Origin: Oscillatoriales cyanobacterium M59_W2019_021
Lineage (GTDB): Bacteria > Cyanobacteriota > Cyanobacteriia > Cyanobacteriales > Geitlerinemataceae
DNA: 64,000 bases
Direction: 5' to 3'
NCBI GenBank assembly: GCA_015295945.1
Contig: DVED01000139.1
Coordinates: 1-64,000 of the forward strand
Part shown: piece by piece, positions 46,653 to 63,891 of the stretch
How the letters are laid out: every line of letters begins with the position of its first letter
Numbering within the stretch: position 1 is the first letter of the stretch
The notes under the pieces: model-generated
Seen by the model: the letters and a program-made list of their open reading frames with translations, nothing else
Databases searched by the model: none
Told to the model about the DNA's origin: nothing
Translations under genes and position numbers: made by a program

Positions 46653-47042
46653 ATGCTTATGTCTTCAAGTGAGGATCGTACTTTAACCGTTTTAGCGGTA
46701 GATGATAGTCCGGTCATGCAAGCCACCATCGAAAGAGCGCTGGGGAGCGAGTATCGAGTTCTCGTCAAAGATAATGCCTTGGATGCGTTGAGCTTAATTT
46801 ACCACGAGCCGATCGCCGTGTTATTGCTCGACGTCTCCATGCCAGAAATCGATGGCTTAGAACTGTGCCGCACGGTGCGGAACTTACCGCAGTTTCAGGA
46901 ATTGCCCATTATCATGCTCACCGCTCGAGATAAAGCCTTCGATAAAGTCAAAGGTCGCATGGCGGGTGCAACGGAGTATCTCACCAAACCCTTTGACGCG
47001 CAAGAGTTACGTCAGATCGTTGATCGATATGCCAAAGCTTAG
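46653..47042 (+). CDS. Single-domain response regulator (receiver only)
   Basis: 129 residues (127 from a second ATG at 46659). Receiver hallmarks are VLAVDDSPVMQATI, the phosphorylation site LLLDVSMPEIDG (Asp60), IIMLTARD and EYLTKPFDAQEL with the conserved Lys. There is no output domain, so it acts by protein contact, CheY-like. The nearest kinase is the bilin-type histidine kinase across the tRNA gene on the other strand, which has no receiver of its own. The stop overlaps the stop of the convergent lyase gene by four bases. Confidence 0.92.
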   Translation: MLMSSSEDRTLTVLAVDDSPVMQATIERALGSEYRVLVKDNALDALSLIYHEPIAVLLLDVSMPEIDGLELCRTVRNLPQFQELPIIMLTARDKAFDKVKGRMAGATEYLTKPFDAQELRQIVDRYAKA

Positions 47043-48802: not shown

Positions 48803-48868
48803 GATCGATCTGTTTATAGAGACTGCGGTAGTAGTTGCTGCCTCAACTTGCCCCTCAAAAATCGTCAG

Positions 48869-48884
48869 TTTGTAAGCTTACAAA
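48869..48884. promoter_or_regulatory. Perfect 16-bp palindrome upstream of the lyase gene
   Basis: TTTGTAAGCTTACAAA is fully self-complementary and is followed by a further half-site ATTGTAAA. It lies about 65 bases upstream of the lyase start and 25 bases past the preceding sulfotransferase stop. A dimeric regulator site is plausible; a transcript-end hairpin is less likely since GC content is low. Confidence 0.4.
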
Positions 48885-48908
48885 ATTGTAAACCCAATGA
48901 TTTTCAGT

Positions 48909-49880
48909 TTAAGTCTGAGAGTCTACTGAGTTGCGATCTTCATAGCTATTTTTATGAAATTTACCGATCGATCCATATCCATACAACAGAGCGTAATGCC
49001 AGTCAATAGTCCAAAACAAAAGTTGATGATACCACCTTAAATTCTGCTTCCATTCCCAATCTTTTTTCAAAATAATTTTGGATTGGTTTCTAATTCGATT
49101 TCCCGATATTTGCTCGGCAATGGGGATATCTAAGCCTTGTTGAATCATCTCGATTTGTCTTGAAAAATCTATTCCCAGAAAGGCTCCAATGGTATTTAAT
49201 GTTTTTTTAGGATTGTCAACAAAGTCTTCATATCGGACTCGAAGATAGTGATCGGAAGAGTGACAAATTTGGAAAATATGGGCAGCGGTTTGAGCGATAA
49301 ACCAAGTCAAAGAGCATCGAACTGCTGCAAAAGGAATGCGAGCATCTAATCCTCGTTCCATCTTTCGATTCGAGCCTTTAAGATAAGACCATATACATCC
49401 TCGACCATCCCGAACTAAATGGATAACTTTGACATCACGATTTGCAAATTTTGAAAGTGAGATCGGTCTCAAAAAGGCTAGTCTTGCCGTTTTTGAAGAG
49501 TCAATCAAATATTCAGTTGCGGGAGGAATATACTTTTCAATTGCTGAAAACAAGCGGTGATTAAATGCTTGATAATCTAAGGCAGACTTGAACTGATTTC
49601 CCCGAAAACATTGAATCAATCCTAAAATTGACTCAAACGCTAATTGATTTTTTCTAAGCTGCTTGAGATTGCTAGAATCATCTAAACTGTCTCGGGCGAC
49701 CTTCGACCAAAATTCTCGCTCTGGATCGCGATAACTTTTAGAGTTAGGATCGAAGTCAATTGAATCGAGAAAATAGCATAACTCTCCCGTGGCAAAAAGC
49801 CGATCGTGACTGTTTAAAATCCGCTCTAAAAGGGTAGAGCCGCTACGACCACATCCAGCAATGTATAAAGTTTTAGTCAT
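48909..49880 (-). CDS. Sulfotransferase (PAPS-dependent)
   Basis: 323 residues. The 5'-phosphosulfate loop is YIAGCGRSGSTLLERILNSH at the N-terminus, and the 3'-phosphate motif region is VIHLVRDGRGCIWSYLKGS with RYEDFVDNPKKTLNTIGAFL following. These are diagnostic of the sulfotransferase fold. It probably adds sulfate from PAPS to a sugar of the polymer made by this cluster. It is one of four sulfotransferases in the run, in the same orientation, 19 bases after the next gene upstream. Confidence 0.88.
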   Translation of the reverse strand: MTKTLYIAGCGRSGSTLLERILNSHDRLFATGELCYFLDSIDFDPNSKSYRDPEREFWSKVARDSLDDSSNLKQLRKNQLAFESILGLIQCFRGNQFKSALDYQAFNHRLFSAIEKYIPPATEYLIDSSKTARLAFLRPISLSKFANRDVKVIHLVRDGRGCIWSYLKGSNRKMERGLDARIPFAAVRCSLTWFIAQTAAHIFQICHSSDHYLRVRYEDFVDNPKKTLNTIGAFLGIDFSRQIEMIQQGLDIPIAEQISGNRIRNQSKIILKKDWEWKQNLRWYHQLLFWTIDWHYALLYGYGSIGKFHKNSYEDRNSVDSQT

Positions 49881-49899
49881 GTCTTTTTTTCTTTCTATT

Positions 49900-50874
49900 T
49901 TAGTAGCCCATTAATTTTTGCAACGGAATCAGGTCGGGATTGCGATCCATAGCTTCTTGGACTTGAGTTTCGTACCGCAATCCAGATTTCTTTTTAACAT
50001 CGGACAAAACATCATTAACTTTCGGAAGTCTTTCGGCAAAAGATTCAAGCTGACTATCTTTGGGTAGATCTGCCCAGTCTAAAATACGTCGAATCCACTC
50101 AACTGGATTGCCAATAAAATCTTCATGTTTGAGAGAAAAGACTCGTTCTTTGGGAATCTCTGCTAAATCCATCATGGCTAACCGATTGCATTGAAAATAT
50201 TGCCATGTTGCCACATCTGCAATACATTGACCTTTGAGAGACTGCCAATCAGGCACTAAAGCAAACTTCCATCGCTTTCCAGAATAGTCTTTTAATTTGA
50301 GATATTTGAGAATTGGGTATCCCGAACGCGCAAAACGCTCAATTTCTAGGAAACCGATTTGATCGGTTGCCAACCAGCCTGAAATTAGAGAGTCGATGTT
50401 GCCATCGGCTTGACGTTTATTCCAAATAAACAGTGCATCGGGAAACAGTCGATCGAGGAATGAAACGCGCAGTGCATTTTTAGGAGTTTTTTCCAAAAAA
50501 CGAATAACTGGAGGTTTTTTGATTTTTGAAAGGTGACCTAATGTGGCAATCATTACTTTACTGATCGAGCGTTCCGAAACGCTCCGAGCAGTCAGAAGGC
50601 ACTCTGGAGACTTGAGAATCTTGTTTAAGTTTAATGCCCGATCGTAAAACTGCTGGTAAAGAGTTTGGGAAAGTTCTTTACAAGTCAAATCTCGAGCAGT
50701 ACATCGATTAGACTCGTAGTTTTTCTCTCGGGGATGAAAATCGTTTTCTAAGATCCCATGAGATTCTCCTTCAAGATGCCATAGATCTCGATGAAGTGCC
50801 AAGCATCGGAATAAAATTGTCGTTCCCGATCTCGGTGCACCAATAATGATAATCGGTCGATCAATAATTGCCAT
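49900..50874 (-). CDS. Sulfotransferase (PAPS-dependent)
   Basis: 324 residues from an ATG at 50874 (MAIIDRPIIIIGAPRSGTTI); the frame is open to 50955 but the family start is here. The phosphosulfate loop is GAPRSGTTILFRCLALH and the later segments FLEKTPKNALRVSFLDRLFP and SLKHEDFIGNPVEWIRRILD match the Sulfotransfer_3 type. It differs from the neighbouring 48909 enzyme in sequence, so it probably sulfates another position or sugar. Cotranscribed with its neighbours. Confidence 0.88.
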   Translation of the reverse strand: MAIIDRPIIIIGAPRSGTTILFRCLALHRDLWHLEGESHGILENDFHPREKNYESNRCTARDLTCKELSQTLYQQFYDRALNLNKILKSPECLLTARSVSERSISKVMIATLGHLSKIKKPPVIRFLEKTPKNALRVSFLDRLFPDALFIWNKRQADGNIDSLISGWLATDQIGFLEIERFARSGYPILKYLKLKDYSGKRWKFALVPDWQSLKGQCIADVATWQYFQCNRLAMMDLAEIPKERVFSLKHEDFIGNPVEWIRRILDWADLPKDSQLESFAERLPKVNDVLSDVKKKSGLRYETQVQEAMDRNPDLIPLQKLMGY

Positions 50875-50955
50875 AGAATGTAAATTTATGGATGGACAAA
50901 AGTGGAATTCTACCAACAAAGTATGAGTTTTGTGTTGCCGGTATCTTGATATCAA

Positions 50956-52080
50956 TTATCTCATTACATATGTCAATTGCTTTTCAGAAATGCGATCGTA
51001 AATTTTTGTGTATCCTCGGTGCATTGAGTCTAAACTAAATTGCTCTTCTACAATCTTTCGACATTGGCGACCGATGTCCAATCGTTGTTCTCGAGACATT
51101 TCTCGAAAACGCTTAATTTCTCGAGCAAATCCATCAATATCGTTAGGGTCGAGCAACGGAATAAAATCAACTTTTCGGGCAATTTCTCTATGGGGCGGAA
51201 TATCGGATAAAATCACGGGACAGCCCGAAGCCATAACTTCTAAAACAGCAACAGGAAGACCTTCTCCTCGAGATGTCGATACAAATAAATCCGCACGTGC
51301 TGAATATTGAAACACTGCATCTCGCGGCACTAGTCCGATGATAGAAACGCGATCGTGCAAATTTAATTGATCGCTCTCTTGCATTAGAGACTCTCGCAAC
51401 TTTCCATCACCAATTAAAGTTAATTGACTGTGAAGATCGTTAGCTTTTTGAAAAGCTTTTAAGAGAGTGGAAAAATTTTTAATCGGGATTAATCGACCCA
51501 CGGAAATAACCTCGAATTGGTCTCTGGAGTTCGTTCGCTCTACATCGGAAATAGCCCGATCGATGCGGTTGAGGTTTGCTGCATTTTGCACGACATTAAT
51601 TTTATGACCCCCCAGTCGCTTCCACCAATGTGGAAAGCTTTCCAAACAAGCATGAGAACAAAATATTAATTCTTGAAATCCCAAGAAAATCGGAATCATT
51701 AAAATTCGATGTTTGAGAGGAAAATTCGGATAAGAATTGTGTACGGTATAAACCGTGATGGGTTTTATTTTTTGATAGCCTCCGCCCAAAATCGCTCCTA
51801 ACAAAAATAAAAATCCTGTGATGGGAGAGTGAACGTGAATTGCATCGTATTTTTGAAATTTCAATGCCGCATTCAAAGCTCGCCAGAAACCTATCAAAGA
51901 GTTGTCTCCATTGAATAACGTAATCTCTTCCGGAGTTGAATCTTTCCGATCAAAATACGTGCAGATTGTAATGTTTCGCCGATCTTTTACAGGCAAACAG
52001 TGTTCGTTATATTGACAGTTTGTTTCTCCAGCGGAAACAATAATATGTAAAAGATTCATTTTGTTGTTTAGAGTAGTCAT
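50956..52080 (-). CDS. Family 4 glycosyltransferase
   Basis: 374 residues from an ATG at 52080, preceded by AGGAAAAAG. GT-B fold signs: an N-terminal MNLLHIIVSAGE strand, VYTVHNSYPNF, the donor region EVISVGRLIPIKNFSTLLKA and the C-terminal nucleotide-sugar motif ADLFVSTSRGEGLPVAVLEV, a typical EGLPVA...E(VM)ASG signature. It should be a cytoplasmic or membrane-associated retaining enzyme extending the lipid-linked repeat unit. It lies inside the sulfotransferase run. Confidence 0.9.
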   Translation of the reverse strand: MTTLNNKMNLLHIIVSAGETNCQYNEHCLPVKDRRNITICTYFDRKDSTPEEITLFNGDNSLIGFWRALNAALKFQKYDAIHVHSPITGFLFLLGAILGGGYQKIKPITVYTVHNSYPNFPLKHRILMIPIFLGFQELIFCSHACLESFPHWWKRLGGHKINVVQNAANLNRIDRAISDVERTNSRDQFEVISVGRLIPIKNFSTLLKAFQKANDLHSQLTLIGDGKLRESLMQESDQLNLHDRVSIIGLVPRDAVFQYSARADLFVSTSRGEGLPVAVLEVMASGCPVILSDIPPHREIARKVDFIPLLDPNDIDGFAREIKRFREMSREQRLDIGRQCRKIVEEQFSLDSMHRGYTKIYDRISEKQLTYVMR

Positions 52081-52181
52081 CTTTTTCCTGCGTATTTGTC
52101 TTGTTTTCTCGTTCCGATCGAGGTAGTTCTATCGGGAGTTCAAATTCGAGTTACCAGTTTAAAATCGAAGCTAAAGAATGA

Positions 52182-52868
52182 TTAAAACTCGTAACCAAAA
52201 TATTCAATTTCTTTCCGGCATACATTGAAAATCCGTTCTTTGTCATTTGGGTTGATAAGTTCTCGATAATGGCGTTTATCTTTTCGATAACTTCCTTTAG
52301 CTTTCGGCATTGTGGGAATTTTGGGCAAATTCAAGATTGTAGCAATTGTTTTCATCTCAGAGTCGAGATTTTCAAAGCGTGCCACTCGATCGACGGCGAT
52401 GTTATCTCCAATGCTATACACATCAAAGTTGGAAAGTTTATAAGAGTCTAAATCGTGAATGAACTCGCTAAACGTCGGTTTTTGGTTGAGAGAGCGCGTC
52501 AGCCAATAGTACCAAGACACGGCTTTATCCCAAGGATTTCGATCGAAGCAAAATTTAAAATAGTTGTTCCAAATGCTGGGATCGATATGCGAATAAATTT
52601 TGCGGGCAGACATATGATTGGAGTACGAAGCTTTTTGATGGCGGACTGCCAAGCGCAACCAATCTTTCATCGTATAATTTTTGAGAGGAATTTCGTAGTT
52701 TTGGGGCTGTATGTACCCAAGTTTCTGGCGAATCTTTTCATCTTCTTCAAAAATCGGCGTAATAATGTCATCGCGATCGCAAAATTCAGAAAGTGCAATC
52801 TCGAGACTCGTTCCTGCAGTTTTTCGGGTTTTGATAAAAATGAATTTGTATCGGTGACAGATTAGCAT
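52182..52868 (-). CDS. Sulfotransferase family 2-like protein
   Basis: 228 residues. The N-terminus is MLICHRYKFIFIKTRKTAGT followed by SLEIALSEF: the 'FIxxxKTAGTS' loop replaces the classic RSGT and is typical of the Sulfotransfer_2 family (carbohydrate sulfotransferases). HIDPSIWNNYFKFCFDRNPW supplies the 3'-phosphate-binding Arg/Asp pattern (F-x-R-(N/H)PW). The third type of sulfotransferase in the run. The sulfate acceptor is presumably a sugar of the polymer. Confidence 0.85.
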   Translation of the reverse strand: MLICHRYKFIFIKTRKTAGTSLEIALSEFCDRDDIITPIFEEDEKIRQKLGYIQPQNYEIPLKNYTMKDWLRLAVRHQKASYSNHMSARKIYSHIDPSIWNNYFKFCFDRNPWDKAVSWYYWLTRSLNQKPTFSEFIHDLDSYKLSNFDVYSIGDNIAVDRVARFENLDSEMKTIATILNLPKIPTMPKAKGSYRKDKRHYRELINPNDKERIFNVCRKEIEYFGYEF

Positions 52869-52941
52869 TTTGACTCCTGGGTCTTGAGAGGGTTAATTGG
52901 GTTTATAATATTTCTCAGTTTTTCGATCGAGTACCATTGAA

Positions 52942-54147
52942 TTATTTAGGGATTGCTTCATGACTCGAAGCGTTGGCATCGAATAAATAATGAGGTGTTG
53001 AAGGGCGGGGTTTCGATCGAGAAACGCAAGCACTGCAAACGGATAATGTCAGGAACAGCCAAGTTTGTTTTCGATGCTCCATATTTTGGGTAACCGCACT
53101 GAAAATCCAGCCGACGATAACTGCTGCCCACAGTTGCGAAGTCCACTTGGGTTGTTTGAACGCGCAATACAGGGAAATTCCAAGTAGTGCGATAAATAAA
53201 CTAAATCCCACGAGTCCCACTTCCGATAATAAAGCCAGGACAAAACTGTGAGCCACTTTAATATGCTCGGTTGTATCCGTCGCTGCGGCAGAAAATGCAA
53301 AGCTGCCAACTCCTAACATCGGATGTTCGGCAAAAACCTCAATCCCTTTTTGCCAAATTTTATCGCGACCGTTTAAATAGCTCTTATGCGTGAATGATGC
53401 ACCCGTCATGCGATCGATCGCGGTATTAGCGAATGGTAATAGGGCAAGTCCCACGCCAATGAGGAAGGCAAAAATTAACGTGCGCACGATGGGATTGAAG
53501 CGTTGCAGGGAATTTAGGATAAATAAAATCCCGGGAAACGCACCCATCAGTGCCGAACGAGAACCCGTCAGTAAAATACACAACAAAGATAAAGGGATAT
53601 AAGCCAAATTCATCCATTTGAAAACCTGATTTTTTTGTCCGTCTTCATCAAATAAGGCAAGATACCAGGCGATCGAGATTCCTAATGCTAAAATCATCCC
53701 GGCAACATTGGAGTTAAATCCTTCCGCACTATAGCGAGTTGCCGCGCCTGAAGAAAAACTGCCAACGAGACTGTAAATCGTGACGTAACAGCCCAAAATA
53801 TACGCTTGTAAACCCCATCGAATCTTAGTTTGGGTGGTGTAAATATCCCACAAGAGATAAACAAAGACCAAAAGTTGCCAGTAGGTGAGCGAGCGATCGA
53901 TCGATCTCTCGGGTGCGACCGACCAGCACACACTCAGAGTATTCCACAGAATAAATACGAGAAAGACAAAGTGAAACAAATGGGGCGGACGAACTCGACC
54001 TCGAACTGCCATAGCAGCCAGCCAACAGAGTCCGACGAGAACGCCGATAATTCGACTAATCGATCCCAATCCACCAATCAGCGAGAGATTTTCCCACGGA
54101 ACGGCAAAGATTGCCAATAGAGATAACCAATAAGCAATCTGGTACAT
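52942..54147 (-). CDS. O-antigen ligase/polymerase-like membrane protein (Wzy candidate)
   Basis: 401 residues with about ten hydrophobic helices. The large periplasmic loop and following segment contain LNGRDKIWQKGIEVFAEHPM then LGVGSFAF, which is the Wzy_C/O-antigen ligase pattern (R-x-x-W...P-x-x-G-x-G). An Arg in LLTGSRSALMGAFPG fits the other conserved loop. In a Wzx/Wzy system it joins repeat units outside the membrane. It sits between a sulfotransferase and a glycosyltransferase in the run. Ligase function cannot be excluded. Confidence 0.85.
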   Translation of the reverse strand: MYQIAYWLSLLAIFAVPWENLSLIGGLGSISRIIGVLVGLCWLAAMAVRGRVRPPHLFHFVFLVFILWNTLSVCWSVAPERSIDRSLTYWQLLVFVYLLWDIYTTQTKIRWGLQAYILGCYVTIYSLVGSFSSGAATRYSAEGFNSNVAGMILALGISIAWYLALFDEDGQKNQVFKWMNLAYIPLSLLCILLTGSRSALMGAFPGILFILNSLQRFNPIVRTLIFAFLIGVGLALLPFANTAIDRMTGASFTHKSYLNGRDKIWQKGIEVFAEHPMLGVGSFAFSAAATDTTEHIKVAHSFVLALLSEVGLVGFSLFIALLGISLYCAFKQPKWTSQLWAAVIVGWIFSAVTQNMEHRKQTWLFLTLSVCSACVSRSKPRPSTPHYLFDANASSHEAIPK

Positions 54148-54152
54148 ATTTG

Positions 54153-55256
54153 CTACCCGACTAAAGCGTGAAGATATTGATTGACGACTGTGTCCACCTC
54201 AAATGGCTGCCAACTTTCCTGACACGGTGGAACCGCTTCCTGAGTCATCGCCATTTCGATCGCTTTGGCTAAGCGATCCTCATCGCCCACGGGAACGAGG
54301 GTGCCGTATTTTCCATCTTGGAGGATTTCCCTCGGACCGTGGGGACAATCTGTAGAAACGACGGGCGTTCCCAAATACATAGCTTCAATCGCCACGATGC
54401 CCAAACCTTCCCAGCGAGAGGACAAGACAAACACCGAAGCGCGTGCCATATAGGGATAGGGATTGAGGACGAACCCCGGCAAGCTGACATCGGATTCCAG
54501 ACCGAACTGGCGAACGAGCCCTTCTAATTCGGGACGTTGGACGCCTTCGCCAAGAACGATCAGGCGTGCCGCCCGATGTTGTCGCAGTTGCGCGAAGGCA
54601 CGAATCAAGGTCGAAAAGTCTTTCTGGGGAACGAGACGACCCACGGCGAGAACGACTGGAGGTTCGCCCGGTTTCAGCCACGGATGCTCGAGGGGGGCTT
54701 TGGCTTTTTCGCGTAAGTCGGGCGTAATGACGGGATTATAAATCGTGCAAATGCGATCGCCATCGAGTCCCGTCACCCGAGGTAAGTCTTCGGCAACTCC
54801 TTGGGAAACCGTCACAATGGTGCGTGCCTGCGGATAAAACCAGCGCATTAAAGTGGGTAGCAGCCGTTTATGCCAACCGCGTGCGTGTTCAAGGGCTAGA
54901 GATAGGGTATTATGCTCGCTGACGACCACTGGCGTGGAAACCCGAGCCAAACCCGAAGCCCACAAGGCGATCAAATTGGCATAATCTAATGCCGATAAGA
55001 GGGCGATCGGTCGATTTTGGCGCAGGTAGCCCACCAATGCTGGCAAGCAAAATAGCGTTCTGGACGCTTTTAAATCCACGATGCGGACGGTTTCCGGAAC
55101 TTCGGGTAGATACGGACCGGTTGCCTGTGCCAAGACCAGATCGACGCAATAGCCGCGTTCGACAAAGCCATTGGCTAATTTTAAGATTAAGCGTTGAGCG
55201 CCACCGCCATTTAACGAAGGAATAAAAATTGCCAATCGTTGCCAAGAGTTCGCCAT
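54153..55256 (-). CDS. Family 4 glycosyltransferase
   Basis: 367 residues from the ATG at 55256 (MANSWQRLAIFIPSLNGGGA; a frame to 55283 overlaps the preceding gene). FIPSLNGGGAQRLILKLANG is the classic GT4 N-terminal loop; VVLAVGRLVPQKDFSTLIRA and ARASVFVLSSRWEGLGIVAI are the donor-binding segments with the Glu of the EGL motif. It should transfer a sugar from a nucleotide donor to the growing lipid-linked unit. Five bases separate its stop from the Wzy candidate's start. Confidence 0.92.
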   Translation of the reverse strand: MANSWQRLAIFIPSLNGGGAQRLILKLANGFVERGYCVDLVLAQATGPYLPEVPETVRIVDLKASRTLFCLPALVGYLRQNRPIALLSALDYANLIALWASGLARVSTPVVVSEHNTLSLALEHARGWHKRLLPTLMRWFYPQARTIVTVSQGVAEDLPRVTGLDGDRICTIYNPVITPDLREKAKAPLEHPWLKPGEPPVVLAVGRLVPQKDFSTLIRAFAQLRQHRAARLIVLGEGVQRPELEGLVRQFGLESDVSLPGFVLNPYPYMARASVFVLSSRWEGLGIVAIEAMYLGTPVVSTDCPHGPREILQDGKYGTLVPVGDEDRLAKAIEMAMTQEAVPPCQESWQPFEVDTVVNQYLHALVG

Positions 55257-55279
55257 CGTCTGTTCCCCGTAGAGTTGAA

Positions 55280-56044
55280 TCAATCGATTAAATGAGCAAA
55301 AGCCGAATCCATCAGGATAGCTTTGACTTCTTTGTAGTTGCGAATGACGTCGGCATGACTGCCGCGTCGAATTTTAACGAGTTTGGGAGCGGGCATCGCG
55401 GCTGGAGCCTCAATGGCGAGAAATTCCCACACTCGATCGAATTGAGTGGCATCGCGCACCAGATCTTCGTAAACCACTTCGATATGGGGTAAGCGAAACT
55501 GCTTCAACAGTTGGCGCGTGAAATTTTGATTGTGTTGCAGTTTTTTCAGATGGGGAATTAAGGTGTAGGGTTCTAGATCGATTTGAATCGTTTCGGGTCT
55601 AGGTTCTCCGGGTAAAATATGAGACCGACCCATAGTGTTTTTTACGCGACTGGAAATGAGGATATCTAAATAATTTTGACGAGTTAGGTGAACGATCGCC
55701 ACGCGCTTGCAGGCGAGATAAGCCCAAATTTCGGGATAGGCTTTCAGGTGAGAGTACATGAGTTTAAATCCTACTGCACCCGGTCGATCGTAAAGTCGAT
55801 CTAAATAGGAAAATACCGAAAAAGGACGAAAACTCCAGCCGCTAGATCGAGATTCGACAAAGCGAGGGTAAGCCACATCCGAATCCCAATATTTCTTTCC
55901 TGGCGTGCGAGTTCGATTTAAAAAGAGTTCGTCGCACACTTGGATATTTTCCAGTCGATCCAGCAAGCTGACCAACCAAGTTGAGCCGCTTCTTTGGGTT
56001 GTCAGAATTGCAAAGTTGATATCTTCAATCGATCTTTTTAGCAT
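55280..56044 (-). CDS. Stf0-like sulfotransferase
   Basis: 254 residues. FAILTTQRSGSTWLVSLLDR at the N-terminus is the phosphosulfate loop, and IQVCDELFLNRTRTPGKKYW and VAIVHLTRQNYLDILISSRV follow, similar to Stf0-type enzymes such as the trehalose sulfotransferase of mycobacteria. It is the fourth and most distinct sulfotransferase in the run. Acceptor sugar unknown. Confidence 0.85.
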   Translation of the reverse strand: MLKRSIEDINFAILTTQRSGSTWLVSLLDRLENIQVCDELFLNRTRTPGKKYWDSDVAYPRFVESRSSGWSFRPFSVFSYLDRLYDRPGAVGFKLMYSHLKAYPEIWAYLACKRVAIVHLTRQNYLDILISSRVKNTMGRSHILPGEPRPETIQIDLEPYTLIPHLKKLQHNQNFTRQLLKQFRLPHIEVVYEDLVRDATQFDRVWEFLAIEAPAAMPAPKLVKIRRGSHADVIRNYKEVKAILMDSAFAHLID

Positions 56045-56068: not shown

Positions 56069-57601
56069 TTAGTGATGTCTTTTTAAAAGCTGTAACCCTC
56101 GATTTTTGAGGTTTGTTCGCTGTGAGTTTGATAACCCAACACAGAGCGCGATCGCCAGGGCAACCCCTGAAGTGACGGCAGCCGATCCGATCAGAGAGAG
56201 CCACGTCGTTGCCTGGAGAAAATGACTGCCATACAACGCCGCCGCGAACAATGCCAACAAGGTTAAGCCCGGTCTGACAATACCCCGCAGTTGAACGAGA
56301 AAAGGAATTCCAAAAAAGCGACCAACCGACCAAGGGTAAGCAATACTTAAAATCAAACGACCGATTAAAAATCCCAAACACAGCCCTAAAACTCCGAGGT
56401 CGAAAACCTCGATCGCCAACCCAGCGAGTACTAAGGATATGGTTGTCGAAACAAAACCGATAATTACCTTATTGCGTAAATCTAGAGTCAGATTGATGAT
56501 GGCAGCATCGTTCCGAATCAAAACCAATTGAGTAACCAATAAGACGATTGCCAAGGTGGGAAGCGGTCCGGCATCATAGCTGGCGCCCACCCACAATTTC
56601 AGAAAAGATTGATTCCACAATAAAATTGTCGAACCCACCACGGCAACGATCAGCCAAGTCACGGACATGATTTCATGGCGAACCCCCATGGCTTTCTTTA
56701 AATTGCCAGAGCCAATGATGCCACCCAACCCAGGAGCCACACCTACAACGACAATCGCGATAATATTGATAATTGTTTCGGGAACGTATTTCGTCAGCGA
56801 GTAAGTCGTGACCAATTCCGCAGAGCTGAGAACTCCTAATAAAACCACATCGCTAGACCGCATGAGCGTCATGACTAAGTTCCACAGTTGAAACCAAACG
56901 CTCAGTTGGAAAAATTGGCGGATTTCTCCCCATTTCGGTCGGGCAATCCCGAACCAAGTGACATAGGTTCGCGTGACCTGCCAGAAAAAAAGTCCCGTCA
57001 AAATGGTCGATGCCAGTGTGGCTAAAGCCACCCCGATCAATCCGCCTTTTAAATACAAAGCTAAGACCGTCAGTCCGCCGCCAATTCCGGACAGACAAGC
57101 CGACAATCCCATCCGCTTGTAGCCCAGATTTTCACCCGTCAACACCGATTCGGGAATGGCGGATAAATCTGTGGCGATCAGGTTGAGGAGTAAGACGGAT
57201 GCTGCCAGTCGAACGGTTAGATAAAAGTCTGGGGAGGCATGCAGCCAAATGGGTGAAAACCAAACCAGAATTAATCCGAGAGGGACGAGTAAAGGGAGAA
57301 ACAACAGCCAAACGGCTAAGGCTCTGCCCACTTGAGAGCGTTTCTCGTGGTAGTCCGCAGAAGACTGCTGGTGGGCAACGGTCCATTTAAGGGCTTGGGT
57401 CGGACGACCGCTGGCGGGGGTTACATATCCGATCAAACGCCCTAAGACTTGCCAGATGCCATAGCCAAAGTCGCCCAATCCACTGACCAGTAAGGGATTA
57501 ATGATAAAACCAACCACAAGCCGCACTCCGTAATCTAAAACAGATGCCACGGCATTGAGAGAGGCTTTTTTCGTTAAGTTAGACTTTTGCGTAAGAGTCA
57601 C
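56069..57601 (-). CDS. Polysaccharide flippase (Wzx-like)
   Basis: 510 residues from a GTG at 57601 (a TTG at 57619 is also in frame; no ATG nearby). About twelve to fourteen hydrophobic helices with the MATE/Wzx pattern: short Lys-rich N-terminus (SNLTKKASLNAVASVLDYGV), helix pairs, and LVTTYSLTKYVPETIINIIA in the centre. It should move lipid-linked repeat units across the membrane. It lies between the kinase pair and the Stf0-like sulfotransferase. Confidence 0.87.
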   Translation of the reverse strand: MTLTQKSNLTKKASLNAVASVLDYGVRLVVGFIINPLLVSGLGDFGYGIWQVLGRLIGYVTPASGRPTQALKWTVAHQQSSADYHEKRSQVGRALAVWLLFLPLLVPLGLILVWFSPIWLHASPDFYLTVRLAASVLLLNLIATDLSAIPESVLTGENLGYKRMGLSACLSGIGGGLTVLALYLKGGLIGVALATLASTILTGLFFWQVTRTYVTWFGIARPKWGEIRQFFQLSVWFQLWNLVMTLMRSSDVVLLGVLSSAELVTTYSLTKYVPETIINIIAIVVVGVAPGLGGIIGSGNLKKAMGVRHEIMSVTWLIVAVVGSTILLWNQSFLKLWVGASYDAGPLPTLAIVLLVTQLVLIRNDAAIINLTLDLRNKVIIGFVSTTISLVLAGLAIEVFDLGVLGLCLGFLIGRLILSIAYPWSVGRFFGIPFLVQLRGIVRPGLTLLALFAAALYGSHFLQATTWLSLIGSAAVTSGVALAIALCVGLSNSQRTNLKNRGLQLLKRHH

Positions 57602-57656
57602 GAGAGTTAGTGTTCCCAAACGTAATGGGGCAAAATCAAGAATGAGGGCATGGCGT

Positions 57657-58373
57657 TTAAACGATCGATCTGAGGTTCAAGGTATCGAGGACTCGATCGG
57701 CAATTCGATCGGCGGTGGCTTCGCTGGTGTCGTAACGCAGAACTTTCAACCCTCGCTCGACGACGAGACGATCGAGAATTTGTCCGGCAGTCTGGCGATA
57801 GCGCCTGAGAAAGTCATAGCCTTCCTCGGGGGATTTGTTTTTAATTTCATGTTCCCGATTTCGGGTATAAACTCGCTCGAGTAAGATGCGATCGGGGGCG
57901 TCCAACCAAACGACTAAATCTAACTTGGCAGCCCAGCGTTCGAGTCGATCGTTCCACCATCGCTCGGACTGCGGACGGTTCATCAGTTGGGGTCCGAATT
58001 CTCGAAGCATGGCTAGACGGTAAATCGGTCCTTGATCCCAAACGATGGCGCGATCGCTCCGGTGCGGGCGTTCTGAAGCTCGATACCAGGCATCCAGGTA
58101 GACCATCGATCTCAATTCGGTTCGCGAGAACCATCGCGTCGAGTTCGGTTCCGGTAAATAGGTCGTCAATCCAAATTTGAGAACGTCGATCCACTCGGGA
58201 AGCGTTTGCCATTTAGACAGACCGATTCCCCCTTGAAGGCGATCGCTTTTCCGACACAGGGTTTGCAGTAGGGTGCTTTTGCCGACGCCGGAAGAACCGA
58301 TAATTTCGATCGTCGAGAGCGGCAAAGCTGAGGTGCAACGGTCTTTGATTGAATCAGATGTATCGAGTTTCAT
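57657..58373 (-). CDS. P-loop kinase-like protein of the exopolysaccharide cluster
   Basis: 238 residues. The Walker A loop is IEIIGSSGVGKSTLLQTLCR at about 22-41. The later segment WDQGPIYRLAMLREFG corresponds to the DR(Y/F/W) region of nucleoside monophosphate kinases, and LVVWLDAPDRILLERVYTRN then matches the LxxxxPxxxxxRxxxR pattern of thymidylate kinases. The lid part carries EIKNKSPEEGYDFLRRYRQT. It is best described as a thymidylate-kinase-like fold with an unknown substrate; a role in sugar or lipid phosphorylation of the cluster is inference. It follows the fused kinase by 15 bases. Confidence 0.75.
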   Translation of the reverse strand: MKLDTSDSIKDRCTSALPLSTIEIIGSSGVGKSTLLQTLCRKSDRLQGGIGLSKWQTLPEWIDVLKFGLTTYLPEPNSTRWFSRTELRSMVYLDAWYRASERPHRSDRAIVWDQGPIYRLAMLREFGPQLMNRPQSERWWNDRLERWAAKLDLVVWLDAPDRILLERVYTRNREHEIKNKSPEEGYDFLRRYRQTAGQILDRLVVERGLKVLRYDTSEATADRIADRVLDTLNLRSIV

Positions 58374-58387
58374 GACTGATTTTCGAT

Positions 58388-59920
58388 TTAGAGAACTGAC
58401 CAGATGAGCGATTTGATTTCCGCCACCACATCGGCTTGCGGGCGACTGGCATCGATTTCAAATGCGGGGGTTTGTTGCCAATCCAAGTTCCAAACTTCTG
58501 TCGAACGCCGTCGGACTCCCTCTGCCTTTTCGTCCGTACGTCGCTGCAAGGCAATTTCGGGATCGAGTTTTAAAACCAGCAATAAGTCGGGCAGTACGAT
58601 GGAGCGATAGTAATTGCGTTCGATTTGGATTAACCCTTCAACCCATCGATTCCGATGGCACGGAGCGACTTGATGCTCGATCTGGGGTCCGTCCATCACC
58701 ATGGCATCCGGCAGGGGAAATCGATCGCACAGAACGATGCCGCCCCGATTGGCAAAACGGCGGGCGCGAATGTAGTTTCGGTAGCGATCTCGCGCCCAGA
58801 AAATATGCTGAAATAATCGAATATAACCGGGAAATACCGGAGATGCAGACTCTTCTGACGGTGAGGGACGCCCGAAGACCCCTCCGACTAACCGACCCAC
58901 TTTGAGCGTCGCCCTCACCAGATAGGTACTCAAAGACCAAGGCGGTTTGCCCATATGCACGTTGAGGGTATCGAACTCTCGAGATAACCATGCAGTCGCT
59001 TGGGCAATGGCAGTGGATTTTCCAGCCCCATCTCCGCCCACTAAGGCAATCATCACCCCGCCACTGACCAAGGATTTTTTAGGTAGACCCCCCGCGATCC
59101 GACGGATCGCGGCGCGGGTTAACCCGCGCCAAAGTTTCAACGTCGCTTCTACAAGACGAGATTGGCGGGTATGGGGTTGCAACGCTTTGAGCAGTTGGCG
59201 TCCGGCTTGAAGGCGAGTCGGTAGCGGACATCCGAGTTGTAAAGACTGCACGCAAGTCTCGAATAACGCTCGATCGATATACGGTAAATGAGTTTTTAAA
59301 TTTTCATCGAGTTGAGTCCAATTCACGCGGGGTTGTAAATCTTCAAATTCTTGCCGCGCGGATTGGGGCAGTTTTCCTTTTCCAGCGAGGAGAACTTCCC
59401 AGGTTGAGTATTTCAAAATCAGACGCACGACCAGAATGATGAATTCAAATTCGGGTGTGGGCAGTCGAAAGAATCGATCGAGCTGGCTCGAGGCGAGGAA
59501 TGCTTCTTCGACGGGCAAGCGATAGTTTTTGGTGCGATCGTGACCGAGAACGAGTTGATAGTGCGCGTGCACGTGAACGAATTTATCGCTCTCGAGATCG
59601 TAGCCGTAGTAGTTGAGAATGCCGGGAAGTTGGCTGAAGGGTGGGACTTGGGTTTGTTTGAACCCCAAGCTCGCCAAAATTTCGGTAAACCGTCCGACAT
59701 CGGCGCGAGACACCAATAAATCGAGATCGTTTTCCCCACTCGCCGACCGATCGATGGCTAAATTGCTCTTCCAATGACAGTAGTTGATGTTCTCTCCTTC
59801 GAGGGTTTGACAGAGGCGATCGATTAAATTGAGAATCGGCTTAGAGGAAACTCGGCAACTCTCGGGTTGGGTTTCTAATTCCGGGCGATCGACAAAAGGG
59901 GTCTGTTGAGTAAAAGTCAT
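58388..59920 (-). CDS. Fusion of nucleotidyltransferase-like domain and P-loop (thymidylate-kinase-like) kinase
   Basis: 510 residues from the ATG at 59920 (a GTG at 59965 adds 15). Residues about 25-250 begin CQTLEGENINYCHWKSNLAI and SGENDLDLLVSRADVGRFTE with the DxD-like pair Asp65/Asp67, the pattern of NTase-fold proteins that recognise phosphate substrates. Residues about 288-510 hold the P-loop ALVGGDGAGKSTAIAQATAW (about 291-310), GGIVLCDRFPLPDAMVMDGP and VLKLDPEIALQRRTDEKAEG, as in thymidylate kinases. An Arg-rich linker (about 262-284) lies over a tandem palindrome in the DNA. It is the first gene of the minus-strand exopolysaccharide run. A glycan or lipid kinase is possible; substrate unknown. 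Confidence 0.75.
   Translation of the reverse strand: MTFTQQTPFVDRPELETQPESCRVSSKPILNLIDRLCQTLEGENINYCHWKSNLAIDRSASGENDLDLLVSRADVGRFTEILASLGFKQTQVPPFSQLPGILNYYGYDLESDKFVHVHAHYQLVLGHDRTKNYRLPVEEAFLASSQLDRFFRLPTPEFEFIILVVRLILKYSTWEVLLAGKGKLPQSARQEFEDLQPRVNWTQLDENLKTHLPYIDRALFETCVQSLQLGCPLPTRLQAGRQLLKALQPHTRQSRLVEATLKLWRGLTRAAIRRIAGGLPKKSLVSGGVMIALVGGDGAGKSTAIAQATAWLSREFDTLNVHMGKPPWSLSTYLVRATLKVGRLVGGVFGRPSPSEESASPVFPGYIRLFQHIFWARDRYRNYIRARRFANRGGIVLCDRFPLPDAMVMDGPQIEHQVAPCHRNRWVEGLIQIERNYYRSIVLPDLLLVLKLDPEIALQRRTDEKAEGVRRRSTEVWNLDWQQTPAFEIDASRPQADVVAEIKSLIWSVL
59092..59130. repeat. Two back-to-back palindromes inside the kinase fusion gene
   Basis: CCGCGATCC-GAC-GGATCGCGG (59092-59112) is followed by GGCGCGGGTTAACCCGCGCC (59111-59130), a perfect 20-bp palindrome. 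The DNA lies exactly over the linker between the nucleotidyltransferase-like and kinase domains. This looks like a small palindromic element inserted in frame. Confidence 0.7.
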
Positions 59921-60820
59921 GTTGATACACGTCGCTCTACAACTGGAATGGAGCGAATTCTCCACGAGTCAAACTGGCTCGACTTTCGCTAGCAGAATGG
60001 ACAGCGAGATCGCGAGTGGTTGGAGTGACTTGACGAGTTCCCCGCTTGCTCGTACTCGTTTTTAGGAGAATCTCTGGGTATGGACGATGTTGTCGCTCTC
60101 TCGTCCATCTCGACAACCTCGAGCCTGGACTTATCTCGGTTGTATCCGTAATAACACGGAAGATCTAGTTTTCTTAATTTTCTCTTAATCTCACGATCGG
60201 CGGCAAATTCGAGTCAAACTCCCTCGATCGCGGGCTGGAAGTTGCCGCGTGGGGTATGGCAACTGCCTCCTTCTTTAAATCTAGCCATCGCTCCACGACC
60301 CATCTCTTGACCCGGTTGCCCTGTTGGGAGTGGCAAAATCTCCAGAATCCCGATTGTGCCGTTAAAAAAGTTTCGACCCTCGTAAATTATTGGGATTCTT
60401 GCAGAGCCCAAACTCACGATCTAGTCGGGGTTCGAGGACTTCTGGGTCGGGAATAGCTGCCATCGATCGGCTCCCTTGTCCGATCGATCTCGCCGCATCT
60501 TCACGAGATCGCCATTCGAGCCTTGCGATCTCCTCTCCGGGTGGCTGCCGCCCGACGCTGCATCTGAAGGAAAACCCTCAACCCCATCGAATTCTAAATA
60601 AAATATAAAATTAACTGTGAAAATACTGACATTCAGATTAAGAGCAGATTAACATGTCCGTATAAGCACGGAATTCAGTTTTGCAGCCAGGGGATCGAGG
60701 GCTAGGAGACCGACCGAATGTATTCTTTTCCATCCCCAATGACAACAGCGAACGCTCTACCCCGAAATCGATCGGTTTTTCCGCGCCGGATTCTAACGGA
60801 ACTCGACCCCCTCGCTAATC
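59921..60820. other. Divergent regulatory region of the exopolysaccharide locus
   Basis: About 900 bases between the minus-strand run and the plus-strand glycosyltransferase. No gene is convincing; short frames at 60214-60608 have poor composition. The part 60595-60660 is AT-rich (AATAAAATATAAAATTAACTG) and could hold a promoter for the plus genes. Direct or inverted repeats of operator type were not seen with certainty. The length suggests complex control of both transcripts. Confidence 0.4.
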
Positions 60821-61978
60821 ATGAAAGCTATGAGAGAAGCAACCATTTGGCACGTAGGAGGAGAAGATGTGCGCATGCGAATTCCCCTACTCCTCAACCT
60901 TCGAGAAAAAGGCTTCCGGGTTGGGGCTGTTGGCTCTGAGAATGGACGCGCGTTTTTCGAGCATCAGATTCCCTATTTTCAATATACCTTGAAACGCGGG
61001 ATCGACCCCAAAGCCGATCGCCAGAGCATCGAGCAACTCTTCCATCTTTTCCGCCAGCATCAGCCCGACTTGGTACACGGTTTCGATACCAAACCCGCCT
61101 GTCTCGTTCCCCCCATTGCCCAGAAAGCCGGTATTGAGGGGCGCGTGAGGACGATCGCCGGAATGGGATACGTCTTCTCCTCGCAATCTCCCTTGGCGCT
61201 GGCTCTGCGACCGATTTATCGCCATCTCCAGCGTCGAGCATCTGCCGCCGCCCAAGTGACGATTTTTCAGAACCCCGACGATCGGGACTATTTCTACCGA
61301 AATCGCATGGTGCGTGAGGGCAATGAGGAACTGGTGTTAGGATCGGGCATCGATATCGAGGGATTGATGCAACAGCGTCCCGCCCTCGACGACCTGACCG
61401 CCCTGCGACAAGAGTTAGAGTTAACCGGAAAACTCGTCGTCACGGCGATCTCTCGTCTCGTTGCGACCAAAGGCATTCGGGAATTTTTGCAAGCCGCCCG
61501 CATCGTTTGCCAACAAGTCGAAAACGTCGCCTTCCTCTTAGTCGGTCCGATCGATTCGGAAGCCAAACAAGCCATTTCCCTCGCCGAAGTGCAGAAATCC
61601 GCGCAATTTGTCCGCTATTTGGGCGTCCGCAACGATATTCCCGCCATCTTGTCCCTCACCGATGTGTTCGTGATGCCCAGCTACTATCGCGAAGGCGTCC
61701 CGCGAGTCTTATTAGAAGCCGGAGCCATGGGCGTGGCTTCGATCGCCACCCACATGCCCGGTTGTAAAGAAGTGGTACGAGATGGCTGGAGCGGTTTGCT
61801 CGTTCCCCCGCGAGATTCCCAGAGCTTAGCCACTGCCATCGTGCGGTTGCTCGTCTCGGCAGGAGACAGAACGGTCATGGGATCTCGATTGAGATCGGAC
61901 GTTCGAGATCGCTTCTCGCTGGCGCGAGTTGCTGATGCCTACAGTCAAATTTACTCTCGCGTATTGAGGAGTGCTTAG
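60821..61978 (+). CDS. Family 4 glycosyltransferase
   Basis: 385 residues. The GT-B fold shows EATIWHVGGEDVRMRIPLLL, GFRVGAVGSENGRAFFEH and the segment RTIAGMGYVFSSQSPLALAL resembling enzymes that add the second sugar onto undecaprenyl-linked sugars (PglA-like). The donor motif is LTDVFVMPSYYREGVPRVLL, with the conserved EGxPxxxLEA. The next gene starts one base after its stop (TAGATG), so they are translationally coupled, and a priming transferase follows. It probably adds an early sugar to the polymer's repeat unit. Confidence 0.9.
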   Translation: MKAMREATIWHVGGEDVRMRIPLLLNLREKGFRVGAVGSENGRAFFEHQIPYFQYTLKRGIDPKADRQSIEQLFHLFRQHQPDLVHGFDTKPACLVPPIAQKAGIEGRVRTIAGMGYVFSSQSPLALALRPIYRHLQRRASAAAQVTIFQNPDDRDYFYRNRMVREGNEELVLGSGIDIEGLMQQRPALDDLTALRQELELTGKLVVTAISRLVATKGIREFLQAARIVCQQVENVAFLLVGPIDSEAKQAISLAEVQKSAQFVRYLGVRNDIPAILSLTDVFVMPSYYREGVPRVLLEAGAMGVASIATHMPGCKEVVRDGWSGLLVPPRDSQSLATAIVRLLVSAGDRTVMGSRLRSDVRDRFSLARVADAYSQIYSRVLRSA

Positions 61979-63136
61979 ATGATTGCCAACGACTTTTTGC
62001 CATTTGCCCTGCCAGATATCGGCAGCGAAGAAACCCACGAAGTCCTCGACACTCTAAAATCGGGCTGGCTGACCACCGGTCCGAAGACCCGACAGTTCGA
62101 GCGCGATTTTGCCGAGTTCCTCGGAGACAGTCTCGAAGCAATTGCCGTCAACTCTGCCACCTCTGGCTTGCATCTAGCCCTAGAAGCCCTGGGAATTGGT
62201 GCGGGCGATGAAGTGATTACGACCCCGTATACCTTTACGGCAACCGCAGAGGTCATCCGTTACTTAGGGGCGCATCCCGTGTTTGTCGATATCGACCCCG
62301 AGACCTTGAACCTCGATCCCGCAGGAATTGAGGCAGCCCTCTCCGAGCGGACGAAAGCCATTATTCCCGTTCATATTGCCGGTTTAGCCTGCGATATGGA
62401 TGCGATTTTGCAGATCGCGCGCGATCGCAACTTGAAAGTGATCGAAGATGCCGCCCATGCCATTCCCACGACTTACCGAGGTGAACTCATCGGCAGCCTG
62501 GATAGCGATGCTACAGTGTATAGCTTCTATGCCAATAAACCCCTCGCCACGGGGGAAGGTGGAATGCTGGTGACCCGTAATGCGGAGATTGCCGAACGCT
62601 GCCGCATCATGCGACTGCACGGGATCGATCGCGACTCGTTCGATCGATATACCTCCACCAAACCCGCATGGCACTACGAAATCGTCGCCCCCGGATTCAA
62701 ATACAACATGACTGACCTCGCTGCCGCTTTGGGCATTCACCAGTTGAGAAAAGTCAGAAACTTTCAAAAGCAACGCGCCGAGATCGCCCGACACTACGAT
62801 ATGGCTTTTGCCGACCTTCCCGTGCAACTCCCCCCGAAACCGCTATTGGGAGATGTTCACTCTTGGCATCTGTATATTCTGCGCTTGTCAGAAACGGCGT
62901 CGATCGATCGAGATGCCTTTATCGAACAGATGGCATCGCGGGGAATTGGTTGCAGCGTTCACTATATCCCGCTCCACATTCATCCTTACTGGCGAGAGAC
63001 TTATCGCCTGCAACCTGAAGATTTTCCTCGAGCTTTATCGGCTTACCAACATGCGGTTAGCCTGCCGATCTATTCCAAAATGACCGACGCCGATCGAGAA
63101 CGAGTGATTCGCGCCGTTCGACAAATTTTAGCTTAA
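61979..63136 (+). CDS. DegT/DnrJ/EryC1 family sugar aminotransferase
   Basis: 385 residues. The PLP-dependent enzyme has [38 protein letters not shown], the aspartate-containing [15 protein letters not shown], and the Schiff-base lysine at Lys187 in [15 protein letters not shown]. The C-terminal part [11 protein letters not shown] and [20 protein letters not shown] are typical of enzymes making UDP-4-amino-sugars (PglE/PseC group). It transfers an amino group to a keto sugar nucleotide. So the polymer may contain an amino-deoxy sugar, though no dehydratase gene is in this window. Confidence 0.93.
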
Positions 63137-63294
63137 TTGAAAGCAGAAAACCACCGCTACGGTTTCTGAGTTTTCAAATCGTTATCAGTCTTTCGATTGT
63201 CTCGAAAGGCGAACGGTTCGCGGGTTTCTGCGAATTCGTTCGCGAGCTCTTTGGGAGAGCTATTGACTTGGTATTGCAAAAACAGGTGTGTATT

Positions 63295-63891
63295 ATGACT
63301 GTCAAACGAACCTTCGACTTTCTAGTCGCTTTAGGGGGGACGATCGTTCTCCTGCCGCTCTTTGCTGTAATTGCCTTGTGGATCGAAATCGATTCTCCAG
63401 GGTCGATCTTATTCGCGCAAACTCGCATTGGAAAATGGGGTCGTCCTTTCAAAATCTATAAGTTTCGGACGATGGTCGCAAATGCGGAAGCGTTAGGCAA
63501 ACAGATTACCACGGCGGACGATTCTCGAATTACCCGTTCCGGTCAGTTTCTCCGGAAATATAAACTGGACGAACTGCCACAACTGTTGAATGTTTTAAAG
63601 GGAGACATGAGCTTAGTCGGTCCTCGTCCGGAAGTTCCCCAGTATGTCGATTTGTACACGCTCGAACAGCGCCGAGTGTTAAACGTTCGACCGGGAATCA
63701 CCGACCTCGCATCGCTGGAATTTCGCAATGAGAACGATATTCTGGCTCGGGTAGAGAATCCAGAAGACGTTTATATTCGAGATATCATGCCTCGAAAGCT
63801 AAATCTCAACCTTCAGTATATCGCTTGCTCGAGCTTTTTATTCGACATCAACCTCGTTTTCAAGACCTTCGTTCGAGTCGTTGCAGTTTGA
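63295..63891 (+). CDS. Priming sugar transferase (undecaprenyl-phosphate type)
   Basis: 198 residues from the ATG at 63295 (a TTG at 63268 adds nine). The single N-terminal hydrophobic segment is FDFLVALGGTIVLLPLFAVI. The bacterial sugar transferase core is FAQTRIGKWGRPFKIYKFRT, then KYKLDELPQLLNVLKGDMSL and VGPRPEVPQYV, all catalytic signatures. With a short N-terminus it belongs to the PglC-like small phosphoglycosyl transferases. It puts the first sugar phosphate on the lipid carrier and starts the repeat unit. With the preceding two genes it forms a Pgl-like trio. Confidence 0.95.
   Translation: MTVKRTFDFLVALGGTIVLLPLFAVIALWIEIDSPGSILFAQTRIGKWGRPFKIYKFRTMVANAEALGKQITTADDSRITRSGQFLRKYKLDELPQLLNVLKGDMSLVGPRPEVPQYVDLYTLEQRRVLNVRPGITDLASLEFRNENDILARVENPEDVYIRDIMPRKLNLNLQYIACSSFLFDINLVFKTFVRVVAV

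Follow-up and report, generated by a model that had tools for sequence, protein, structure and literature searches.

The first 64,000 nucleotides of contig DVED01000139.1 of Oscillatoriales cyanobacterium M59_W2019_021 (assembly GCA_015295945.1), called the window here, contain two neighboring minus-strand genes for P-loop proteins, which we named FUS and KIN2. FUS (58388..59965) encodes an NTP_transf_5-like nucleotidyltransferase (NTase) domain, a helical linker, and a P-loop kinase domain with the thymidylate kinase (TMK) fold. KIN2 (57657..58373) encodes a soluble P-loop kinase of 238 amino acids resembling deoxynucleoside (dNK), nucleoside monophosphate (NMP), and sugar kinases. We tentatively propose, from the sequences and their gene neighborhoods, that the pair may be a conserved module for phosphorylation in the cytoplasm, serving a single kind of Wzx/Wzy-dependent exopolysaccharide. 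Our best guess for the acceptor is a sugar, a glycan, or a carrier, because the genome has a separate thymidylate kinase gene (tmk), FUS has lost the motifs of the thymidine monophosphate (dTMP) site, and Wzx/Wzy loci of other genomes keep the pair.

Both genes were found in eight genomes: the window genome, G398, G647, G511, G399, G785, G855, and G983. A Wzx-type flippase, a Wzy-type polymerase, and one type of GT4 glycosyltransferase (GT4a) accompany the pair in all eight. The preliminary description had taken a lack of conserved polysaccharide neighbors as the outcome that would speak against it, and these neighbors are present throughout. The pairing is more than chance, since other phyla have orthologues of both genes next to the same set of partners. 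For example, a Chloroflexota metagenome-assembled genome (G398, locus L002) has both (49% identity to the window for FUS and 41% for KIN2), and in an Actinomycetes metagenome-assembled genome the fusion is followed by wzx, GT4, wzy, and sulfotransferase genes. In a sample of 647 genomes of Chloroflexota and Actinomycetota, FUS is confined to a small minority; NTase-containing FUS occurs in 11 genomes and KIN2 in eight, seven of which are among the 11. The naive hypergeometric P for this co-occurrence is 3e-13, a value inflated by several actinobacterial genomes being near relatives and by profiles that include rows from these same genomes. In the eighth KIN2 genome (G887), KIN2 adjoins a sulfotransferase gene close to the end of a contig that also carries a Wzc-like gene. 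The assemblies of G399, G855, and G983 are fragmented and place FUS and KIN2 on separate contigs; in G785, the two are about 12 kb apart. In a sample of Actinomycetota, the Wzx of the window type was found in the two FUS-bearing genomes vs none of the 59 others, and the same search of a Chloroflexota sample gave weak matches only.

Sulfotransferase genes accompany the pair in six of the eight genomes. A profile scan over 40-50 kb, with Pfam for the main neighbors, found none near the pair in the Chloroflexota loci of G511 and G647, and none is annotated near a related fusion on the Chelatococcus plasmid pTAD1. The constant link is thus to polymer assembly genes, and the link to sulfation is frequent without being required. 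The G511 and G647 loci speak against a role tied strictly to sulfation, and the specificity for sulfated polymers implied in the preliminary description is not supported.

FUS may start at a GTG at position 59965, giving 525 amino acids, or at an ATG at 59920, giving 510; the latter is the gene boundary used previously. The NTase-like domain spans approximately residues 45-190 and the kinase domain approximately residues 300-525. Apart from a DR motif in KIN2, the motifs first read from the letters are in place, SGENDLDLLVS and the P-loop GGDGAGKST (residues 310-318) in FUS and the P-loop GSSGVGKST (residues 26-34) in KIN2. Both proteins had been called thymidylate-kinase-like, each with a DR-type motif, and both statements stand for FUS. 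Its kinase domain matches the TMK of A. aeolicus (E 1.8e-6, A4 profile against the PDB), and its best Foldseek matches are TMKs (S. aureus TMK 4dwj, E 1.9e-7). The scores of 17.7 bits to PF02223 and 21.6 bits to TIGR00041 are under the curated cut-offs of 27 and 83 bits. FUS is like Tmk in fold, in the GxDGxGK[ST]T P-loop, in DR[YF], and in the LDxxPExALxR region, and unlike it in the fused N-terminal domain, the sub-cutoff Pfam score, and the polysaccharide-operon setting.

The acceptor side of the kinase domain departs from Tmk. We aligned seven FUS-type kinase domains with three canonical tmk genes (L001, L090, and L091). The P-loop and the DR motif are conserved in the FUS family and common to the tmk genes in this alignment. 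The two motifs that shape the dTMP site of Tmk, REPGG and SxxAYQG, are absent from all seven FUS-type domains, which carry HMGKPxWS and DR[YF]P...DGP in their place. The canonical genes all have REPGG, and L001 and L091 have SxxAYQG, with SSRVYQG in L090. Because both motifs are absent, dTMP is unlikely to be the acceptor of FUS. A canonical tmk, the presence of which had been suggested as a check, was found elsewhere in the genome (G000:C89:19833-20417, E 5.6e-49). A housekeeping Tmk was therefore rejected as the identity of FUS, given this separate gene and the lost dTMP-site motifs, and the earlier view that the pair is not housekeeping is upheld by these two observations and by its conservation in Wzx/Wzy loci.

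The nucleotidyltransferase-like domain, reported for the first gene only, was confirmed there as NTP_transf_5-like. The window protein scores 22.9 bits to PF14907 (E 7e-5), under the cut-off of 31.2 bits, and nine of 11 FUS family members match at E<=0.01 (best 1.2e-7). The DxD metal-binding motif (D80 and D82) is invariant in 11/11 members. The position of the third catalytic acid is occupied by histidine (H131), equally invariant in all 11; most PF14907 proteins legible in related genomes have D or E there (vDLHW/vELHW). As aligned, the domain has kept its metal-binding pair and lost the third catalytic acid. Active nucleotidyl transfer by FUS is not assured since this acid is replaced by histidine. 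FUS is thus like NTP_transf_5 in the WK[SG] and DLDLLV motifs and DxD, and unlike it in the histidine, the sub-cutoff window score, and the kinase fusion. The NTase-like half of the FUS structure model is too uncertain to inform.

KIN2 fits the label of thymidylate kinase less well. It scores 15.0 bits to PF02223 and 15.3 bits to TIGR00041, under both cut-offs, and matches AAA_33, AAA_18, and dNK better than Thymidylate_kin, though weakly. The KIN2 family profile gives its top scores to adenylate, gluconate, and (d)CMP kinase models, and a low-confidence structure model (predicted local distance difference test score, pLDDT, 63) resembles dCK/AK with template modeling (TM) scores of about 0.33-0.47. 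KIN2 is thus predicted to be a P-loop kinase closer to deoxynucleoside, NMP, and sugar kinases than to thymidylate kinase. Its motifs are GxxGxGK[ST]T, DQGPxY, WLDA, and RxxxRxxxHxxK. DQGP replaces the DR motif that had been ascribed to it. The P-loop, DQGP, and the LID-type arginines are conserved across the KIN2 family. Hydroxyl kinases are common among its relatives, which include deoxynucleoside, gluconate, shikimate, and adenylate kinases. In hydropathy profiles, FUS has only a marginal hydrophobic segment and KIN2 no strongly hydrophobic one, which is consistent with cytoplasmic ATP-using enzymes.

In the mechanism that we propose, KIN2 would phosphorylate a hydroxyl, either on the lipid-carrier-linked repeat unit or on a precursor. 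A second phosphate, or phosphorylation at a second site, would then come from the TMK-fold domain of FUS; enzymes with an NMP-kinase fold, such as Tmk, normally have a phosphate (monoester) as their acceptor. The NTase-like domain, with DxD kept and histidine at the third position, may bind or cap the phosphorylated group, and the co-conserved Wzx would export the product afterwards. The substrate, the step order, and the chemistry of each domain are what we infer here. Another small P-loop kinase, KIN3, forms a fusion with a FUS-like TMK domain in Actinomycetota loci (G785, G855, G983, and others) and lies directly beside a FUS paralogue in G398 (loci L075:8154-9713, L084:7911-9470, L085:1-1590, L086:3441-5057, and L072:1167-3469). 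This fusion or adjacency suggests that the small kinase and the TMK-like domain act sequentially. A bolder version, which we consider rather doubtful, is a two-step phosphorylation relay on the repeat unit by NMP-kinase-fold enzymes, in which the NTase-like domain without its third acid would attach a non-nucleotide group (e.g., a sugar via a phosphodiester); such a relay would serve Wzx/Wzy loci in three or more phyla and would have spread horizontally.

Several points weigh against the phosphorylation module. P-loop kinases take many acceptors, and the gene neighborhood names no substrate. The sequential diphosphate idea comes from the fold class and the fusion pattern alone, and the structure models are of modest confidence (pLDDT 62-63 for FUS and KIN2). 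A distant FUS relative in G846 (L081:9056-10228) is without a P-loop and has intact NTase-like motifs; its sequence suggests either that this genome can do without the kinase activity or that the gene is in decay.

The main metabolic rival is donor synthesis, in which a small sugar or alcohol, once phosphorylated by KIN2 and the FUS kinase, would be converted by the NTase-like domain into a nucleotide-activated donor for a transferase of the locus. A kinase and a nucleotidyltransferase in one polypeptide recall bifunctional activating enzymes such as HldE and FKP, and transferases adjoin the pair. However, NTP_transf_5 is a Pol-beta-type fold, not a sugar-nucleotidyltransferase fold, and is thus unsuited to sugar-nucleotidyl transfer; the invariant histidine (11/11) also tells against this role, as does a normal sugar nucleotidyltransferase (PF00483) in the G511 locus. 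We regard donor synthesis as unlikely. The lost third acid could also point to a regulatory module, in which the P-loop proteins would regulate or chaperone Wzx/Wzy/GT assembly in an NTP-dependent manner, rather than acting as metabolite kinases, and the NTase-like domain would be a degenerate sensor. The G846 relative, which keeps the NTase-like domain without a P-loop, and the tracking of one Wzx type by FUS would both suit this explanation. Nevertheless, the acceptor-side motifs (DR[YF]P..DGP in FUS and DQGPxY in KIN2) and the LID-type arginines are conserved as they would be in enzymes, and we think a purely regulatory role quite unlikely.

Two further explanations would tie the kinases to supply pathways. 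As support for sulfation, they would make or recycle 3'-phosphoadenosine 5'-phosphosulfate (PAPS) for the sulfotransferases, e.g., as extra adenosine 5'-phosphosulfate (APS) kinases. This would accord with the sulfotransferases in six of the eight genomes and with a fusion of pyruvate kinase and ATP sulfurylase near FUS in G398 and near the FUS relative in G846. However, the window genome (at G000:C107), G398, and G399 have canonical APS kinases, G511 and G647 keep the pair with no sulfotransferase detected around it, and neither protein scores as an APS kinase (PF01583 had no match listed for FUS or KIN2). An extra APS kinase is disfavored given the canonical gene elsewhere and the loci without detected sulfotransferases, and a sulfation-support role is altogether very improbable. 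Even less probable is a duplicated thymidylate or deoxynucleoside kinase for dTDP-sugars or salvage. The TMK fold of the FUS C-terminal domain and the dNK-like matches of KIN2 would fit nucleotide metabolism, but a canonical tmk is present, the dTMP-site motifs are absent from FUS, and the two genes recur with one type of polysaccharide locus.

The window copy is isolated among cyanobacteria. Searches of 98 further genomes from its family and order found neither gene, and none of about 338 other cyanobacterial genomes yielded the fusion; the remaining hits there were low-scoring short pieces mostly from the P-loop region. With the window as the only real match in the phylum search, a cyanobacterial family was rejected, and the idea that the pair is typical of cyanobacteria is not supported. 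Because the fusion was not found in these relatives, the FUS copy of the window was probably acquired horizontally. Support in the FUS tree is too weak to place a donor group, and the nearest sequences by identity are from Chloroflexota. In a tblastn search of plasmids, we found a 30% identical fusion on Chelatococcus pTAD1 and kinase-only relatives in Novosphingobium and Acetobacter; for KIN2, a marginal match in Rhizobium was the only one. The second gene of the Chelatococcus plasmid was not counted as a KIN2 orthologue, as pairwise BLAST gave a P-loop match only. Scanning viral contigs with the FUS alignment returned ordinary tmk genes only. Plasmids of Novosphingobium resinovorum (L008:10937-12719, two in tandem) and Acetobacter pomorum (L007:11995-12762) also carry, close to polysaccharide genes, stand-alone TMK-like kinases with DR[YF]P...DGP.

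In the window, FUS heads a minus-strand run, and the preliminary description was right that the two genes are neighboring open reading frames on one strand, joined to the same run as Wzx and sulfotransferase genes; the run also holds GT4 genes and wzy. The gap between FUS and KIN2 is 14 bp, and the gaps from KIN2 to wzy are about 40 bp or less. After KIN2, the run continues with the Wzx-type flippase (56069..57619), a sulfotransferase (55280..56044; Sulfotransfer_3/Stf0-like, sub-cutoff), GT4a (54153..55283; 52-55% identical in related loci), the Wzy-type polymerase (52942..54147; Wzy_C), a sulfotransferase (52182..52868; Sulfotransfer_2), a second GT4 glycosyltransferase (50956..52080), and two sulfotransferases (49900..50955, Sulfotransfer_3; 48909..49880, Sulfotransfer_3/1), ending at 48909. 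On the plus strand there are a divergently oriented GT4 glycosyltransferase (60821..61978), a DegT/DnrJ/EryC1-type sugar aminotransferase (61979..63136), relatives of which are also close to the pair in G511 and G647, and an initiating sugar-phosphate transferase (Bac_transf; 63268..63891), followed past the window end by a Wzc-like co-polymerase (contig 64181-66310). The locus is a complete Wzx/Wzy-type locus because the divergent GT4, the DegT aminotransferase, Bac_transf, and the Wzc-like gene adjoin the run. Its product would be a secreted and probably sulfated polysaccharide. The distal part of the operon (48001-54000; sulfotransferases, GT4, and wzy) has 40-43% G+C vs about 50% around it and resembles acquired DNA. 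Beyond the run, 47039-48802 encodes a protein with GAEGFG and a TSP3-type repeat that is pectate-lyase-like by eye, and a Pectate_lyase_4 protein is present in the G511 locus (L071:15260-16759).

Other proteins were seen beside the pair or its relatives. The fusion of a pyruvate-kinase barrel and ATP sulfurylase (PF00224, PUA_2, and PF01747; Pfam-confirmed in L002) lies in the G398 FUS locus at L002:6340-8601; another, in G846 (L081:5656-7893), is beside a sulfotransferase and the FUS relative, and the KIN2 locus of G887 holds a possible part of one (L130:10667-11806). A protein of about 570 amino acids, which ends in a GINT1_N domain (PF24793) and has no match for its N-terminal half, adjoins the pair in both loci where no sulfotransferase was detected (L070:15390-17111 and L071:7542-9248). 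Two distant proteins near sulfotransferase genes (L089:9127-10572 and L088:8901-10457) are C-terminally TMK-like (Pfam-checked in L089), with an N-terminal domain that has a DVDA motif and is NTase-like by eye only.

In the open-access papers that we searched, we found no description of such a kinase pair with a polysaccharide, an exopolysaccharide, or a sulfotransferase, and no account of a phosphorylation step for such polymers, in line with the preliminary description. The conserved pairing and its placement in polysaccharide loci had no counterpart in these papers; the parts belong to known superfamilies. If the phosphorylation module is real, polymers regarded as sulfated may be phosphorylated too, with altered charge and metal binding, and TMK-fold and NTP_transf_5-like proteins annotated as hypothetical would gain a use. 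The synechan (xss) cluster for a sulfated exopolysaccharide in Synechocystis is likewise cyanobacterial and Wzx/Wzy-dependent, with sulfotransferases and glycosyltransferases; the text of that paper mentions no thymidylate kinase or nucleotidyltransferase, and the only kinases named are a sensor histidine kinase and Wzc (PMC8205485). The wps-1 cluster of the actinomycete Actinoplanes missouriensis is also of the Wzx/Wzy type with two sulfotransferases, and an adjacent gene of the sulfate adenylyltransferase/APS kinase family is needed for sporangium formation (PMC13390465). However, its kinase is described as protein-kinase-like (IPR011009) rather than as a P-loop kinase pair (PMC13390465).

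Closer precedents come from enzymes that place a phosphate on a larger molecule. The glycan kinase-methyltransferases WbdD and ORF6-O7 were shown to phosphorylate the end of a polysaccharide chain (PMC11231755) and are a precedent for the phosphorylation that we favor. They differ from the pair in their kinase folds (the ORF6-O7 kinase was compared with AmiN), in having a methyltransferase rather than an NTase domain, and in belonging to ABC-transporter systems with a coiled-coil chain-length ruler (PMC11231755). If our reading is correct, some Wzx/Wzy loci would encode dedicated phosphorylating enzymes with a fold unlike that of these glycan kinases (PMC11231755). In the lasso-peptide pair PsmK/PsmN, gene knockouts showed phosphorylation of a serine and then addition of hexose to the phosphoserine (PMC9266682). 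The substrate there is a peptide, but the scheme is similar to that proposed for FUS and KIN2, with a kinase and then a nucleotidyltransferase-like protein acting in sequence.

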